DNA of 64,000 nt from Haloarcula limicola. Lineage in GTDB: Archaea; Halobacteriota; Halobacteria; Halobacteriales; Haloarculaceae. The DNA lies in the NCBI RefSeq assembly GCF_010119205.1, contig NZ_WRXM01000004.1:186001-250000 (forward strand), given 5' to 3'. The notes under the pieces were generated by a model. That model was not told where the DNA came from, made no database searches, and was given only the letters and a program-made list of their open reading frames with translations. Positions 17,609 through 23,586 of the stretch are shown here, in pieces; position 1 is the stretch's first letter, and each line of letters opens with the position of its first letter. The position numbers and the translations under genes were made by a program.

Positions 17609-19525
17609 CTATAAGCTTTGTTCCCGCTCGCCCGCTATCGGTCGGGCGTCGTCCAGCAGATTGACGCTCTGTGCGTCCACGACTGCGGCGATACTCGCGC
17701 CGTCGAACAGGCGCACGTCGTCGTCCGCCGGAAGCGGCGTGACGTCCGCCGGGAGTCGCTGGACGGTCGCGAACAACACCGCGTCCACCGTCGCTTCCGC
17801 GGCGAGCGATCGGCATCGCTCGACGTGGTCGCTCGTCACGTCGTCTGTGGTCGAGCGGTGGACCACGATGCCCATCCGGTCGCCGTCTCGCGTCGCTCGC
17901 AGGTCGAACGGCGAGTCCGGTTCGACCCGTTCCGCCTCCCATGCCGTCTCGTCGAGCACGTCGGCGACCACGTCGACGAGTCGATCCCCGTCCAACGCGC
18001 GGAGTCGGTCGACCGTCGAGGCGGATTCGTCGCCCGTCGGGAGGGTTTCGTCGGTCGGTTCGGAGCGTCGCGAGTCGACGGCCTCCGACGGCGGGCGGAT
18101 GGCGTCCTCGATCGCCGTCGGGCCGTCGTCGGACGGGTCGCCGAGCGTCCCCGAAGCCCCGTAGTCCGGTTCGGCCGTCGTCTCGATACGGTCTGGAGCA
18201 GGGTCGCCGTTCACCAGCGCCTCGGTCCGTTCGAGTCGCTGTTCGAGCGCGTCCCGCTCTGCCGCCAGATGGGACACCGCGTCGGGATAGCAGTCCCGGG
18301 CCGTCGCGAGCGCCGCCTCGAACGCCTCGGCGGCGGCCTCGAACTCCGCCAGCGCGACCTCTGTCTGTCCGGCGTCGCTGTACCAGTCACCGGCGCGCAT
18401 CGCATCGACGGCGACGGTGCGCTGGGCCGCCGTGAGGTTCTCGGCGACGGCGCCCAGTCGGTCCCGAATCGTCGCCGTGTCGCCCGCGAAGCGCCGGTTC
18501 TCGGCACCCCAGTCGATCTCCAAGGCCGTCCGGTAGTGCGCCATCGCTTCCCGCCAGTGTTCGATCGCGTCCTCGGGGTCGTCCGCCGCGACGGCCGCTT
18601 TATCCGCCGTGACGGCCTTCCGGAGCGGCGACTTCTCCAGGTGGTCGACGATACGGTTCAGGCGATCTCGCTCGGCGCGGATCCCGTCTACGTCGTCGAT
18701 AGCGTCGCGGTCGAGGGCGAGCGCCGCGTCGTACTCCTCGCTCGCGCGCTCGTATGCGTCGTGGGCGGCCTCGTACTCGCCCTCTCGCCAGCGCGTCTCA
18801 CCGGCGTCCGTCGTCACGCGGGCGCGTCCGACGTGTATCGCCGCGAGCGTTCGCTCGCAACGGGCTTCGAGCGAGTCGACCCGTTCCTGCAGCGCGGTCC
18901 CACCGTGCTCCGCGGCGAACTGAAACGCGACGCCCCGAGCCGTCTCGGCGCGCTCTCGGGCGCGCTCGACGGCCGAAGCCGCCTCGTCGTAGCGGCCCTC
19001 CTCCCGGCGTTCGGTCGCCGTCACGAGCAGTTCCGTCGCCGCGTCGAACTCGGTCTCGACGCGTCGCCACGCCCGCGAAGCCGCGTCGAGGTACTCCGCG
19101 ACCGCTTCGAGCCCGTCGGTCCCCGTTCGAATCACTACCGTCGAGTGGCCGTCCCGGACGACCGTGAGAGAGCCGCCGCGGAGCCCCGTTTCCCACTCGA
19201 CCTCGTCGACGTCCGCGAGCGACACCGCCACTTCTCGGTCCCCCGACTCGTCGCCGACCAGCGCGAGAACCCGTCGGTCGGTGACCACCGCGATCGTCCG
19301 ATAGCCCCGACCGGGCCGAACTGTCTCGATGGACTCGGCCGTTTCGACGGTCACCCCGCGCTTGCGGTTCGTGAGGACGAACGTCGGCGTCTCCGTCGCT
19401 TCGAGAGCCGCCGCGGCCGCCCGGTCGTGAAGGTAGCCTTCCGAGAACACGCCGCCCGAACCGGTCTGCGTGAGCAGCGAGGGTAGCTCGCCCTCGTAAT
19501 TATTTATTTTGATAATCTCGCCCAT
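17609..19525 (-). CDS. PH-like / helical-repeat / degenerate nuclease-fold protein
   Basis: A 638-residue soluble protein in three parts. Residues about 25-150 look like a bacterial PH-type domain (TIAVVTDRRVLALVG, then DVDEVEW). Residues about 155-460 are alanine/glutamate-rich helices resembling tandem TPR or coiled-coil hairpins, with recurrent EYDEAASAYERA-like units. After a disordered linker, residues about 530-625 resemble an Mrr-like restriction-endonuclease fold (LVDVVADVLDETAWEAE, then FDLRA). The usual (E/Q)xK of the active site reads VVH, so cleavage is doubtful. The start is the ATG; a GTG lies one codon upstream. The protein may sense a membrane or ligand and bind a partner. Function unknown. 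Confidence 0.75.
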   Translation of the reverse strand: MGEIIKINNYEGELPSLLTQTGSGGVFSEGYLHDRAAAAALEATETPTFVLTNRKRGVTVETAESIETVRPGRGYRTIAVVTDRRVLALVGDESGDREVAVSLADVDEVEWETGLRGGSLTVVRDGHSTVVIRTGTDGLEAVAEYLDAASRAWRRVETEFDAATELLVTATERREEGRYDEAASAVERARERAETARGVAFQFAAEHGGTALQERVDSLEARCERTLAAIHVGRARVTTDAGETRWREGEYEAAHDAYERASEEYDAALALDRDAIDDVDGIRAERDRLNRIVDHLEKSPLRKAVTADKAAVAADDPEDAIEHWREAMAHYRTALEIDWGAENRRFAGDTATIRDRLGAVAENLTAAQRTVAVDAMRAGDWYSDAGQTEVALAEFEAAAEAFEAALATARDCYPDAVSHLAAERDALEQRLERTEALVNGDPAPDRIETTAEPDYGASGTLGDPSDDGPTAIEDAIRPPSEAVDSRRSEPTDETLPTGDESASTVDRLRALDGDRLVDVVADVLDETAWEAERVEPDSPFDLRATRDGDRMGIVVHRSTTDDVTSDHVERCRSLAAEATVDAVLFATVQRLPADVTPLPADDDVRLFDGASIAAVVDAQSVNLLDDARPIAGEREQSL

Positions 19526-19732
19526 CACCGAGGGTTACAGCGCCGGAAGTCTTGATACCTGCGTATAGATTCTGATTCTAACCTATAGTATTTACAAGAT
19601 TCGGAGGGTAACGGACCCAATCAGATCCGAAGGGCCGCTCTCTCTCGCTATTTCCTTCGTGTGTCCCTATCTATCGAACAGCGGACGCCCGTCTGACGGA
19701 CATTTAGGTATGACGGGAAATTATTCTGGCAC

Positions 19733-19906
19733 ATGCCACGCGTAGGATTGTACGGGGCGAGCGAGGAACGGCCGTCGACCGGCATCGACGTTCGGATAGA
19801 TACCGAGGTGTTCGCCGTTCTCTCGAATGGGCGAGCGCTGGAACGGTTCGGACCGCGCCCGACCGTCGAGCGGTGGCTCGACTGCTGGGGCGGGAACGCC
19901 CGCTAG
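19733..19906 (+). CDS. Possible small protein, 57 aa
   Basis: An ATG-started 57-codon frame with GC-rich third positions, a beta-strand-like start (MPRVGLYGASEE) and a C-terminus rich in Arg and Trp. It ends 4 bases inside the 3' end of the salactin gene on the other strand. An AT-rich stretch (GGGAAATTATTCT) precedes the start but no good TATA box is seen. No family is recognised. It could be a real small gene or an accidental frame. Confidence 0.35.
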   Translation: MPRVGLYGASEERPSTGIDVRIDTEVFAVLSNGRALERFGPRPTVERWLDCWGGNAR

Positions 19907-20970
19907 CTGTTCTCGACGAGGCGGGCCGCGATGCGCTGTGCGCCGACGGTGGGCGCGACGTCGGGCTGTTCGGCGGCGGTCGCCTCGATCTCGCGGTTCA
20001 GTTCCTCGCTGAGGCGCGCCTCGAACTCGTCGACGATACCGGGGATGCAGGCCATCCCGCCGGTGAGCACGATGGGTCGGTCAAGCGCCAGCTGGTAGAC
20101 TTTCATGTAGTCGTTGGCCAGTTCCGGCAGGAAGGTGTTGGCGAGTTCGTCCACCGCATCGTCGAGGTACTCGTCGACGGCGTCCATCACCGAGCGCTCG
20201 ATGGTGAACTCGTGGGTGCCGCCGCCGGGCTGCTGGATGATGTCCGTGAACGGCTCGAACTCCACGAAGTCGGCGTGTTCCTCCTTGTACTCGCGGGCGG
20301 TCTGCGTGTCGACGTTGACTCTCCCCTGCGTCTCCTCCTCGACGTAGTTCGCGATCATCCGGTCGACTTCGTTGCCGGTGACCGCGCCGGTCGTGAAGGG
20401 CGCTAACTGCTCGCCGCGCCGATAGGCGGAGGCTTCGAGGTTCGTCGACCCCATGTTGACCGAGATGAAGATCTCGTCGATGGCCTCTAACCCCTCGCCG
20501 AAGGCGGGGATGGAACCGCACAGCGATTCGGGATAGCTCTCGACGAGGCGCATACCGATAGAGGACTCCTCGATGACCGCTCGGAGATTGTCCAGCCCGG
20601 CGGGGTTGTCGATGGTCGGGATGGCGTAGACGACGCCGCTGTCGGCCGGGATGTCGTTCTCCTCGATGAGGGCCTCGAAGAACGTCTTGGTCATCTCCGC
20701 GCGGTCAGCGTCTTCGGGCAGGCCCGACCGGAGCATGTACTGAACGCGGTCGGGGTACTCGCGGGCGGCCTCCTCGCCGTAGAGGACCTTCTCCTCGCCG
20801 GTCAGGGCGTCTTCGTAGGTCGCCATGCAGGTCAGCGTCTTGATGATTCGGTTCTCGGTCCCGTGGTCGTCGGGCAGGGCGATGACCGTCCGGGTGCTGC
20901 CGAGTTTCACACCCACCGGCACCGACCGACCGCTGCCGGACGCCGAGTCGGCCGCGTCGTCGTCACTCAT
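19903..20970 (-). CDS. Salactin-like actin-family ATPase
   Basis: A 355-residue member of the actin/MreB/Hsp70 superfamily. It matches what I remember of salactin, the haloarchaeal actin homologue described in Halobacterium salinarum as a dynamically unstable filament that grows from the cell poles. The phosphate-1 loop is GVKLGSTRT (residues 20-28), phosphate-2 is VNMGSTNLEA, and the adenosine motif is VLTGGMACIPG. The aspartates normal in loops 1 and 2 read Lys22 and Asn, so nucleotide handling may differ from MreB. The N-terminal 15 residues are acidic and disordered. It has its own TATA box. The neighbours are an ArlD/E-like protein, ParA and CheW. Confidence 0.8.
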   Translation of the reverse strand: MSDDDAADSASGSGRSVPVGVKLGSTRTVIALPDDHGTENRIIKTLTCMATYEDALTGEEKVLYGEEAAREYPDRVQYMLRSGLPEDADRAEMTKTFFEALIEENDIPADSGVVYAIPTIDNPAGLDNLRAVIEESSIGMRLVESYPESLCGSIPAFGEGLEAIDEIFISVNMGSTNLEASAYRRGEQLAPFTTGAVTGNEVDRMIANYVEEETQGRVNVDTQTAREYKEEHADFVEFEPFTDIIQQPGGGTHEFTIERSVMDAVDEYLDDAVDELANTFLPELANDYMKVYQLALDRPIVLTGGMACIPGIVDEFEARLSEELNREIEATAAEQPDVAPTVGAQRIAARLVENS

Positions 20971-20993
20971 GTCTCCCGTCTTATCCCCGCCTC

Positions 20994-21003
20994 GATATAT
21001 ATC
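20994..21003 (-). promoter_or_regulatory. Salactin promoter TATA box
   Basis: GATATATATC is centred 28 bases before the ATG at 20970, the spacing of a leaderless transcript. It shows that salactin can be transcribed apart from the ArlD/E-like gene upstream. Confidence 0.6.
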
Positions 21004-21048
21004 CTCTCGTCAAGAATCAGCGTTGATAGTGACCACCCGCGGACTGCG

Positions 21049-21549
21049 CTACGTCATCGCGGCCAGTTTCGCGACGTACACCAGACTCAGCATGTGGTCG
21101 TCCACGCTGAGGTCGTTGCCGTCGTTGGTCGCCGACTCGTCGATTCCCAGTAAGTAGTCCGAGAGGTCGGCCTCGACCTCTTCGGTGATCCAGTCGATGG
21201 ACTCGTAGTAGGCCAGCGCCTCGTCGGCCCCCTGATAACCCGAGTGCATCAACAGGAACTCCAGCCACTCGAAGACGACGAACTCGGCGGCGTACGTCTC
21301 CGGAAGCGTACCGAGATACGGCTTCTCCTGACTGTCACCGGCCAGAAACGGGAGCAGTTCGCGGTACAGCCCGGACCGGAGAGAACTGCCGGCCACGACT
21401 TCCTCGTCGCCGTCTTCCAACCCCACGTCGAGATCGCCCGGGTCGGGTATCCCGCCCTCGCCGAGGCCGTTTCCGTTCTCCCGGTCGCCGCGCTGGCGGG
21501 CGATCTTCCGCAGTTCGTCCAGGTCGTAGTCGCGCGGGTTGATGGTCAT
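21049..21549 (-). CDS. Archaellum ArlD/E-like (FlaD/E) domain protein
   Basis: A 166-residue protein. Its C-terminal 100 residues match the FlaD/FlaE (ArlD/ArlE) domain: PYLGTLPETYAAEFVVFEWLEFLL, split by the family's GYQGADEALAYYESIDWI element and the closing LSDYLLG. Arl D/E proteins couple the archaellum motor to the chemotaxis adaptors. No other arl gene lies in the window, so this is a stand-alone paralogue. The N-terminal 50 residues are acidic and glycine-rich. The ATG at 21549 is preferred over a GTG two codons upstream; GTTAAATC at 21576-21583 is a possible TATA box. It is divergent from parA and upstream of salactin on the same strand. Confidence 0.82.
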   Translation of the reverse strand: MTINPRDYDLDELRKIARQRGDRENGNGLGEGGIPDPGDLDVGLEDGDEEVVAGSSLRSGLYRELLPFLAGDSQEKPYLGTLPETYAAEFVVFEWLEFLLMHSGYQGADEALAYYESIDWITEEVEADLSDYLLGIDESATNDGNDLSVDDHMLSLVYVAKLAAMT

Positions 21550-21680
21550 TGCCACTTGTGTTTCAACTACGTGAAGTTAAATCTTACATTCGTCCGACGG
21601 TCGTCAGACGCCGTTCACCGGGCTCTCGCCGCCGATTCGGCCGTCGCCCCTCAGTTCCGCCGTTGATAATCGGGGGCGTA

Positions 21681-21690
21681 TTTTTATACG
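21681..21690 (+). promoter_or_regulatory. parA promoter TATA box
   Basis: TTTTTATACG is centred about 36 bases before the parA ATG at 21722, implying a leader of some 10 bases. It shares the divergent spacer with the ArlD/E-like gene. Confidence 0.5.
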
Positions 21691-21721
21691 CACCCGTCAC
21701 AGACGTTCGCTCACTTCGACG

Positions 21722-22615
21722 ATGAACCGCCAGTCCACGTCCGATCCGGCCCGTATCTGCGTGACGAACGCGAAGGGCGGGACCGGCAAGACGACGGTAG
21801 CGATCAACGTAGCCGGTGCCCTGAGCGACCGCGGGCGGGACGTCCTCTTCGTGGACTTGGACCCGCAGGGCAACGCCACGGAGGGACTGGGCCTCGCCGA
21901 GGCCTACGACGCGCAGCCGCCGACGCTGTTCGACGTGCTGACCGGCGACCCCAACGGCCTCGCCGACCTCGTGGTCGAACACGAGGAGATGGACGTCGTC
22001 CCCTCTAGCATCGACATGCTACAGGCCGAACACGAACTGACCGTCGCGGATCTCATCGCCCGGGTCCGCACGGGGGATCACGACGTCGACCCGGCGGCGC
22101 TCTCGGCGTTCGCGCTGAACGTCACGCCGAAGACGGTCACCGGCGACCACGCGCTCGATACGCTGGACCGCGCGCTCTCGACGGTCCCCGGGTACGATTA
22201 CGTCGTCATCGATTCCCCGCCGTTCTACGGCAAGCTGACCGACGCCGCCGTCTTCGCCGCGGGGAACATCCTCGTCCCGGCGCTCGCGGAGGCCACCTCC
22301 GAGCGCGCCATCGAGCTCCTGATGGACCAGATGGCGGCCTTGGAGCGACAGACGGGCACTTCGGTGCGGACGCTCGGCGTGGTGGCCAACCGCATCGAGA
22401 CGACCTCGGAAGACGAGACGATGCTCCAGTGGTTCGACGCCGCGTTCCCCGACAGCCCGGTCTGGCGGGTCCGCAAGCGCGTGGCCCTCCAGCGGGCGTA
22501 CACGCGGGGCAACTCGCTGTTCGGGAGCGACGAGGAGTGCGACATGAGCGCGGTGTTCGAGGACATCGCCGCGGATCTGGACAGGCAGTTCGGCTACACG
22601 GAGATACCAGCATGA
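21722..22615 (+). CDS. parA: ParA/MinD-family ATPase next to CheW
   Basis: A 297-residue deviant-Walker ATPase. The P-loop is KGGTGKTT at residues 18-25 with the signature lysine K18, Walker A' is VDLDPQGNAT (D45/D47), and the Walker B strand is YVVIDSPP. Such proteins segregate plasmids or chromosomes or position protein complexes. Here no parB or centromere repeat is seen; instead the stop overlaps the start of a CheW gene (ATGA), and a salactin and an ArlD/E-like gene lie divergently. By analogy to ParC/PpfA in bacteria and MinD4 in haloarchaea, positioning of chemosensory or motility complexes is the likeliest role, but this is inference. Confidence 0.88.
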   Translation: MNRQSTSDPARICVTNAKGGTGKTTVAINVAGALSDRGRDVLFVDLDPQGNATEGLGLAEAYDAQPPTLFDVLTGDPNGLADLVVEHEEMDVVPSSIDMLQAEHELTVADLIARVRTGDHDVDPAALSAFALNVTPKTVTGDHALDTLDRALSTVPGYDYVVIDSPPFYGKLTDAAVFAAGNILVPALAEATSERAIELLMDQMAALERQTGTSVRTLGVVANRIETTSEDETMLQWFDAAFPDSPVWRVRKRVALQRAYTRGNSLFGSDEECDMSAVFEDIAADLDRQFGYTEIPA

Positions 22616-23586
22616 GCGACGACGACCGTATGGACAGAGCAGAGCGCATCCGCGACATGCGCCAGGGGAACAGAGCGGACGACGAGCAGACGACGGACGG
22701 CGACGGAGCGTCGTCGGACCGGGCGGGAGAGGCCGCTTCGGGTGCAGAGACGGACGTAGCGGCAGACACGGATGCAAAGCCAGAGCCAGCCTCCGGTCCG
22801 GATGACGATGACTCGACGGCCGACTCCGACGAGCCGACCGCTGCGGCGGCCGAGCAGGCGGGCGACGGAATCGACTCGGCCGAGAGAACCGGTGCCCAGT
22901 CGGACGCGACCGCGGCCGCCGAACGAGCCGCGGCGGCCGCCGCGCAGGTCGCCGACGACGCTCCTGCGACCGGCGGTGCGGGCGGGGTGCAGTCCGACGA
23001 TATCGCCGCGACGGCCTCGCCGATGCGGGGACCGACCGGCGTCGAACTCCCGGACCAGCAGCTTCTGGAAGAAGCGATGGCGACGGGCGACGGCGATCGA
23101 GTCGAAGGGTCGGCCAGGGCGGCGATCGGGGAAGAGACGGGCCAGAAGGAGGAGATGGTTCGCGTCCTCGAGTTCGCGCTCGGCGAGGAGTACTACTGCC
23201 TCGACATCGAGTACGTCGAGGAGATAGTCAAGCGCGACGCGGTCACGCGCGTCCCCAACACGCCCGACTACGTCGAGGGGGTCGTCGACCTCCGCGGGCA
23301 GATAACGACCATCCTCGACCCCAAGCGGATGATGGACGTCGACGCCGACGGCGAGAAGACCCTCATCGTCGTCTTCGACCCGGGGATGTTCGGGGAGCAA
23401 GGCGCGGTCGGGTGGGTCGTCGACGCTGTCCGACAGGTCGTCCCCGTCGCCGAGTCGGAGGTCAACGACCCGCCGGTCGACGGGGAGTACGTCAACGGCG
23501 TCGTCGACCGCGAGGACCACGACCAGTTCGTCATCTGGGTCGAACCCGACGACGCGCTCGACGCGGCGACGAGCGCGGACGACTGA
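22612..23586 (+). CDS. cheW: CheW-domain protein with long disordered N-terminus
   Basis: A 324-residue protein. The first 175 residues are low-complexity, rich in Asp, Ala, Glu and Ser and surely disordered. The CheW domain covers about residues 182-310: MVRVLEFALGEEYYCLDI, EIVKRDAVTRVPNTPDYVEG, VVDLRGQITTILDP. Canonical CheW is about 150 residues and bridges receptors and CheA. The start is the ATG overlapping the parA stop. The long acidic tail may act as a tether to ParA, as interaction tails do in bacterial chemosensory positioning. No cheA or receptor gene is nearby. Confidence 0.88.
   Translation: MSDDDRMDRAERIRDMRQGNRADDEQTTDGDGASSDRAGEAASGAETDVAADTDAKPEPASGPDDDDSTADSDEPTAAAAEQAGDGIDSAERTGAQSDATAAAERAAAAAAQVADDAPATGGAGGVQSDDIAATASPMRGPTGVELPDQQLLEEAMATGDGDRVEGSARAAIGEETGQKEEMVRVLEFALGEEYYCLDIEYVEEIVKRDAVTRVPNTPDYVEGVVDLRGQITTILDPKRMMDVDADGEKTLIVVFDPGMFGEQGAVGWVVDAVRQVVPVAESEVNDPPVDGEYVNGVVDREDHDQFVIWVEPDDALDAATSADD

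Follow-up and report, generated by a model that had tools for sequence, protein, structure and literature searches.

This work concerns four adjacent genes in a stretch of 64,000 nucleotides from Haloarcula limicola (the window, part of contig C4 in a genome of 3.9 Mb), coding for the actin-like protein salactin, the archaellum adaptor ArlD, a ParA-type ATPase and a CheW adaptor with a long N-terminal extension, CheW2. On balance, we lean slightly towards seeing in this locus two modules of two genes each, meant for placing the archaellum and the chemoreceptor arrays and expressed from a divergent promoter linked to cell division. Most likely, ParA and CheW2 position the arrays, salactin and ArlD anchor or place the archaellum, and both pairs are tied to cell division, a localisation that we infer from gene content and neighbourhood. 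The question bears on the placement of swimming motors and sensory arrays in archaeal cells, and on the role of salactin: if true, positioning the swimming and sensing machines would be a new role for an archaeal actin. The comparative data tie that actin to the archaellum, name a likely partner peptide of ParA and suggest a link with a cell-division regulator. In a search of the mostly freely accessible literature, we found no prior report of salactin with arlD, or of ParA with CheW2, in haloarchaea.

All four genes of the original prediction are present as open reading frames with a family match each, and parA and cheW2 indeed overlap by ATGA:

19903..20970, minus strand: salactin, actin-family filament protein, 355 residues; PF25229, 620.8 bits, E 7e-187; NCBIfam equivalog NF053533, 603 bits (cut-off 400)
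21049..21549, minus strand: arlD, archaellum switch/adaptor protein, 166 residues from the ATG; PF04659, E 2e-29
21550..21721: divergent arlD/parA promoter region, with conserved TATA-like elements on both sides
21592..21609: CdrS-type box GTCCGACGGTCGTCAGAC, 42 bp upstream of the arlD ATG
21722..22615, plus strand: parA, Soj-type ParA ATPase, 297 residues; AAA_31/CbiA matches, deviant Walker A motif KGGTGKTT
22612..23586, plus strand: cheW2, CheW adaptor with N-terminal extension, 324 residues; PF01584, E 2e-23
22612..22680, plus strand: N-terminal basic helix of CheW2 MSDDDRMDRAERIRDMRQGNR, a near-invariant motif and predicted ParA-binding, ATPase-stimulating peptide

Such a grouping is far beyond chance, because the same adjacencies recur across genera and families. 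They were followed in 212 genomes of Halobacteria, where f1 stands for Haloarculaceae, f4 for Haloferacaceae and f3 for a family that we take to be Natrialbaceae; outside this class, the groups are probably Archaeoglobi and Methanocella.

Salactin and the only ArlD of the genome

The window was said to contain no arl or che cluster. This is true of the window, but not of the genome: a full cluster, lacking arlD, lies on contig C1 (1655k-1683k) and comprises arlJIHGF, arlCE, cheD, cheC, cheY, arlA, cheW1, cheB, cheA, cheR and cheF, labels that come from sequence and gene order with no per-gene family search. In this genome, PF04659 is represented twice, by arlCE and by the window gene. The product of the latter (its reading frame is also open to a GTG at 21555) is a short stand-alone protein with a C-terminal ArlD/E domain, as befits ArlD. 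It is 40-41% identical to ArlD from the Halobacterium arl cluster, shares its full-length architecture and has the N-terminal motif M..NPRxYDxxELR in common with it. Because of this motif, the full length and the identity of about 40%, we treat it as ArlD. It had been presented as a paralogue of the archaellum adaptor; an extra paralogue is ruled out, the gene being the only PF04659 member besides arlCE and sharing the Halobacterium motif, so that we are dealing with the genome's only ArlD and not with a spare copy. A tree of the ArlD/E domain (113 columns) places the protein outside the ArlCE clade and does not contradict this assignment; the tree is too short, with weak deep support (54/85), and architecture and copy number were therefore used for orthology. 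Sequence searches of the PDB with salactin and with ArlD gave no matches, and no fold match was found for the predicted ArlD model.

By sequence, then, the protein belongs to the ArlCDE switch complex of the archaellum, whereas its gene lies apart from the arl cluster, coupled to salactin. Halobacterium-type genomes have arlD directly before arlCE in the arl cluster. From this place it is gone in the Haloarculaceae and Haloferacaceae clusters that we read, where the stand-alone gene adjoins salactin instead. Of the 80 named salactin loci, 64 have arlD as the next gene upstream, in the same orientation (61 retrieved by script and three, L211, L224 and L243, added by hand because overlapping called starts had hidden them). 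The others are two loci with salactin inside an arl operon (L191, L203), four Halosimplex loci with arlD about 5 kb upstream, one with a PF04659-type gene downstream, and nine with no PF04659 neighbour, of which two lie close to the edge of a contig. The arl/che cluster of Haloferax, Halobellus, Halogeometricum and their relatives contains the pair, after cheY-cheC-cheD. In Halorubrum, the two genes overlap or nearly do so, which supports a single transcript there; in the window, the 78 bp ahead of salactin hold a TATA-like stretch, making a second promoter possible.

Window salactin is 98% identical to that of H. amylovorans and 35-84% identical to 21 homologues, out to methanogen- and Archaeoglobi-type genomes. 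Its score, above the equivalog cut-off, places it in the same family as the H. salinarum protein, known for DNA partitioning at low ploidy; by contrast with that species, most other genera pair the gene with arlD, and it is confined to genomes that have archaellum and chemotaxis genes. Salactin is present in 104 of the 212 genomes, all 104 of which also carry PF04659 and PF01584 (positive in 170 and 182 of the 212, respectively). It is found in none of the 42 arl-negative genomes (Fisher p 4e-15), nor in any of the 30 CheW-negative ones (p 2e-10), and its association with both systems together gives p 2e-20. As relatedness inflates these statistics, the count was repeated within Haloarculaceae and Haloferacaceae, where salactin is common: 96 genomes with both systems have it and four do not, while it is absent from all 19 genomes without arl or che genes, losses that span nine genera. 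The wide pairing with arlD and the confinement to archaellum and chemotaxis genomes point to the motility apparatus.

Two deviations are worth recording. Halovenus-type genomes (L057, 6300-14524; L191; L203) have two salactin genes within a duplicated arl operon, in the order arlI-arlH-arlCE-salactin-arlH-arlCE-salactin-arlG-arlF-arlCE. The salactin of some Haloferax species (L095, L097 and related loci) is strongly diverged, with 320-374 bits against about 550 in H. larsenii; it still adjoins arlD, and its filament function may be lost.

ParA and its putative CheW partner

In 28 of 29 loci read, from three families, a long cheW gene starts at the parA stop codon or within a few bases of it; the exception, in an f6 genome, is a parA with no cheW, located close to where a 74 kb contig ends. 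Orthologues of the window ParA, 53-77% identical, are found in nearly all Haloarculaceae genera, one Haloferacaceae genus and the Natrialbaceae-type genomes. The protein is Soj-like, its closest relatives being Soj-type ATPases. It is not a MinD: it scores 57 bits against the archaeal MinD profile, for a cut-off of 202, and inspection of the alignment showed no MinD-like C-terminal amphipathic membrane helix, the C-terminus being Soj-like. Neither does it look like part of a ParABS system: as foreseen for parB, the immediate flanking genes scanned include no ParB or other DNA-binding partner, and the neighbour is a CheW. The pair lies outside the chemotaxis operon in Haloarculaceae and beside che genes in Natrialbaceae-type genomes, where it adjoins cheB-cheA and cheW1. 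The window genome has five receptor genes and three PF01584 matches, read as cheW1, the CheA domain and the window CheW.

The N-terminus of CheW2 is strikingly constant. RMDRAxRIRxMREG is near-invariant across Haloarculaceae, DDRARRIRxLRNR is its counterpart in Natrialbaceae-type genomes, and the Haloferacaceae genus has a looser form; R..RAxRIRx(M/L)R is near-invariant in 28 proteins, with R9, A10, R12 and R17 invariant in alignment A3. Between this motif and the CheW domain lies an unconserved linker of some 100-330 residues, with many Asp and Glu and few Lys and Arg. In the AlphaFold model, residues 4-18 are helical (pLDDT about 73), most of the linker is modelled with low confidence, and a CheW fold is predicted with confidence at 182-321. 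In Foldseek, the best matches of this fold are CheW proteins, those of solved core signalling units reaching TM scores of 0.81-0.85, and CheA P5 comes lower. Thus the disordered tail of 175 residues first ascribed to this protein does exist as a flexible region (about 180 residues), but it precedes the CheW domain, and its first 20 residues or so form a conserved helix.

This layout recalls a bacterial precedent. Vibrio ParP is made of an N-terminal part, which binds the ParA-like ParC, a long linker, and a CheW-like AIF domain that enters the array, and parC is immediately upstream of parP (PMC5706961). The window likewise has a ParA-like gene with a deviant Walker A motif immediately upstream of its partner, and in CheW2 a long flexible linker likewise joins an N-terminal part to a C-terminal SH3-like domain of the CheW/AIF type; the Natrialbaceae-type pair, though not that of Haloarculaceae, is found within a che cluster. 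However, the AIF domain of ParP belongs to a clade of its own, nearer CheA P5 than CheW, whereas CheW2 has a true CheW domain (Pfam CheW); furthermore, the haloarchaeal linker is acidic, ParA is Soj-like and no HubP-type landmark is known. The likeness is one of layout and does not establish orthology. In Rhodobacter, too, a ParA-type ATPase, PpfA, positions chemoreceptor clusters and is contacted by the N-terminus of its partner, TlpT, which likely stimulates the ATPase (PMC5706961); the partner there is a receptor, while here it is a CheW. More generally, ParB-type partners are thought to stimulate ParA via N-terminal arginine residues (PMC9178275). Closer to home, MinD4 and MinD2 of Haloferax provide ParA/MinD-superfamily control of archaella and arrays in haloarchaea, as we propose for the window set; in the latter, the ATPase differs in being a ParA, in having a CheW partner of its own and in adjoining an actin/ArlD pair.

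In Halobacterium-type genomes (L124, L125, L126, L130), a MinD-type ATPase gene directly follows arlJ, near cheW2, forming a second ParA/MinD-CheW neighbourhood. This ATPase, located between arlJ and cheW2, was considered as the same ParA and rejected, being of the MinD type.

A divergent promoter with a probable cell-division box

Between arlD and parA, TATA-like elements face both ways, that of arlD on the reverse strand at about 21574-21587 and that of parA, TTTTTATA, at 21681-21688. The box between them follows the pattern GTCWGAC-N4-GTCWGAC. In the window genome, 14 sites fit a related pattern with at most one mismatch, against three in a reversed control, and three of the 14 lie ahead of ftsZ, dacZ and a gene for a bactofilin. 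Among the perfect copies of a Haloferax-type genome is one located 50 bp ahead of ftsZ1; another copy, with one mismatch, precedes a gene read as panA. It is known that ftsZ1 (-50), dacZ and panA are chromatin immunoprecipitation targets of the cell-division regulator CdrS (PMC8406309). The published CdrS motif is available only as a figure, and the box was matched to CdrS via these common targets. The window box has the same sequence and spacing as the one before ftsZ1, and dacZ and panA carry it as well; by contrast, motility or cytoskeleton genes are not among the published H. volcanii targets that we saw. On this basis, the arlD/parA promoter is probably regulated by CdrS. About 45 Haloarculaceae loci (with some genomes counted twice) have the box at 41-53 bp upstream of arlD; in Haloferacaceae it is mostly absent, which makes it essentially a feature of Haloarculaceae. 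It stays with arlD whether or not parA adjoins.

As a side observation, the bactofilin box (L248; C1:930922 of the same genome) lies between a DUF5800 gene and the bactofilin-family gene, and several cytoskeleton genes may share the CdrS regulator.

How the modules might work, and competing explanations

In the first module, ArlD, a member of the switch complex at the base of the archaellum, would be paired with the actin-like filament of salactin, which would anchor, place or pass on that base at the cell pole through ArlD. In the second, the ATPase and its CheW-based adaptor would behave as a ParC/ParP-like pair: the CheW domain would dock into chemoreceptor arrays, and the arginine-rich N-terminal helix, held on its long acidic tether, would contact ParA and stimulate its ATPase, with the consequence that arrays are distributed or held in place. 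Through the CdrS-type box, expression would be coupled to the regulon of cell division, which would make sense if every new pole has to be equipped when the cell divides.

Several facts weigh against this account. The arlD and parA modules are unlinked in several Haloarculaceae genera (g6, g7, Halorientalis-type), and in some genomes salactin is unlinked from both. Salactin is missing from 54 genomes that have both systems, mainly outside Haloarculaceae and Haloferacaceae, and from the motile families f3, f6, f7 and f10; it must be dispensable for motility, and the idea that it is a general motility requirement was rejected, since many motile genera do without it. H. salinarum cells without salactin show no motility difference but an altered distribution of DNA in low phosphate (PMC10746226), a result qualified by the fact that salactin is not adjacent to arlD in that species. 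In H. volcanii, positioning of arrays and archaellum depends on MinD2 and MinD4, not on this ParA (PMC11588486). Finally, some Archaeoglobi-type genomes have salactin but no PF04659 gene.

The strongest competitor is a restricted version of our explanation, compatible with both its halves, and we give it almost an even chance. Here arlD-salactin, as a cytoskeleton of the archaellum base, and parA-cheW2, as an array-positioning pair, are independent, and became neighbours in Haloarculaceae only for shared expression, not as one machine. As cases in point, parA-cheW2 occurs without arlD or salactin in g6, g7, g57 and f3, Haloferacaceae have arlD-salactin without parA, and the box follows arlD irrespective of parA; moreover, arrays and archaella of H. 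volcanii are positioned independently (PMC6509185). By contrast, arlD and parA are head to head in six Haloarculaceae genera (g1, g2, g4, g5, g8, g11), with or without salactin, and a salactin-ParA-type linkage exists in Archaeoglobi-type genomes as well, though that ParA is distant. The original prediction of a self-contained device positioning archaella or arrays fares accordingly: a positioning set made of two linked modules is the best reading of the comparative data, while a single four-part machine is unproven. Likewise, of the co-occurrence that it expected, arlD-salactin and parA-cheW2 are conserved across families, but the full four-gene set is limited to Haloarculaceae genera.

It has to be considered, further, that salactin and ParA might be DNA-segregation factors, the former moving chromosomes at low ploidy and the latter partitioning DNA, with incidental motility neighbours. 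Salactin filaments, described in publications for H. salinarum only, grow from the cell poles and display dynamic instability from pole to midcell, and cells without salactin suffer from a DNA-distribution defect in low phosphate (PMC10746226); the kinship of the window ParA with Soj-type ATPases goes in the same direction. We nevertheless find this unlikely. The neighbour of parA codes not for a ParB or another DNA-binding protein but for a CheW with a conserved N-terminal peptide, the adjacency of arlD is repeated across families, and no surveyed genome of Halobacteria has salactin without archaellum or chemotaxis genes, which would be unexpected for a general segregation factor.

Less probable still is that CheW2 tunes signals, in competition with CheW1 for receptors, with ParA controlling its availability and not the position of arrays. 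In H. salinarum, CheW2 binds receptors dynamically, but not CheA, and tuning of receptor groups was put forward as its role (PMC3579733); its deletion does not turn the cells into smooth swimmers (PMC2666748). However, that protein is a different, shorter one, which has no long N-terminal extension and is encoded next to an ATPase of the MinD type instead of this ParA; in addition, cargo-positioning pairs usually consist of a ParA-type ATPase and a partner with an N-terminal peptide. The poorest candidate is a relic of arl-cluster rearrangement, arlD having moved once beside salactin and stayed there with no functional link: the absence of arlD from its Halobacterium place in the Haloarculaceae and Haloferacaceae clusters read would fit a single ancestral event, but the pair occurs at isolated sites as well as within arl/che clusters, salactin was inserted twice within the arl operon of Halovenus-type genomes, and genomes of the two families that lack arl or che genes, from nine genera, never have it.

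Relatives outside Halobacteria and a further neighbour

In Archaeoglobi-type genomes (L149, L150, L151, L153, L158, L159, L161 and others), salactin is followed by a coiled-coil protein of about 170-265 residues and then by a distant ParA/MinD-like ATPase. One of these operons is preceded by the type-IV-pilus genes T2SSE and T2SSF and by pilin-like genes, and others have T2SSF after them. In Methanocella-type genomes (L144, L146), a gene of the prepilin-peptidase family comes directly after salactin (Pfam match for L144). The existence of salactin genomes without PF04659 suggests that the older link may be to type-IV-filament machines generally. A wider, and rather doubtful, proposal would be that haloarchaea possess a dedicated polar motility cytoskeleton, with salactin-ArlD at the archaellum base and ParA-CheW2 carrying the arrays, co-expressed under CdrS to supply every new pole with a motor and an array, and derived from an older salactin-adaptor-ParA set of type-IV-filament machines in the phylum. 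The coiled-coil protein could not be tied to ArlC or ArlD, its PF05377 match of 24 bits being below the cut-off.

Within the window, downstream of salactin and on the same strand (17609-19528), is found a gene for a protein of 639 residues with TPR-like repeats and a weak PH-like match. About half of the Haloarculaceae loci have a homologue of it beside salactin, also in cases where arlD is not a neighbour.

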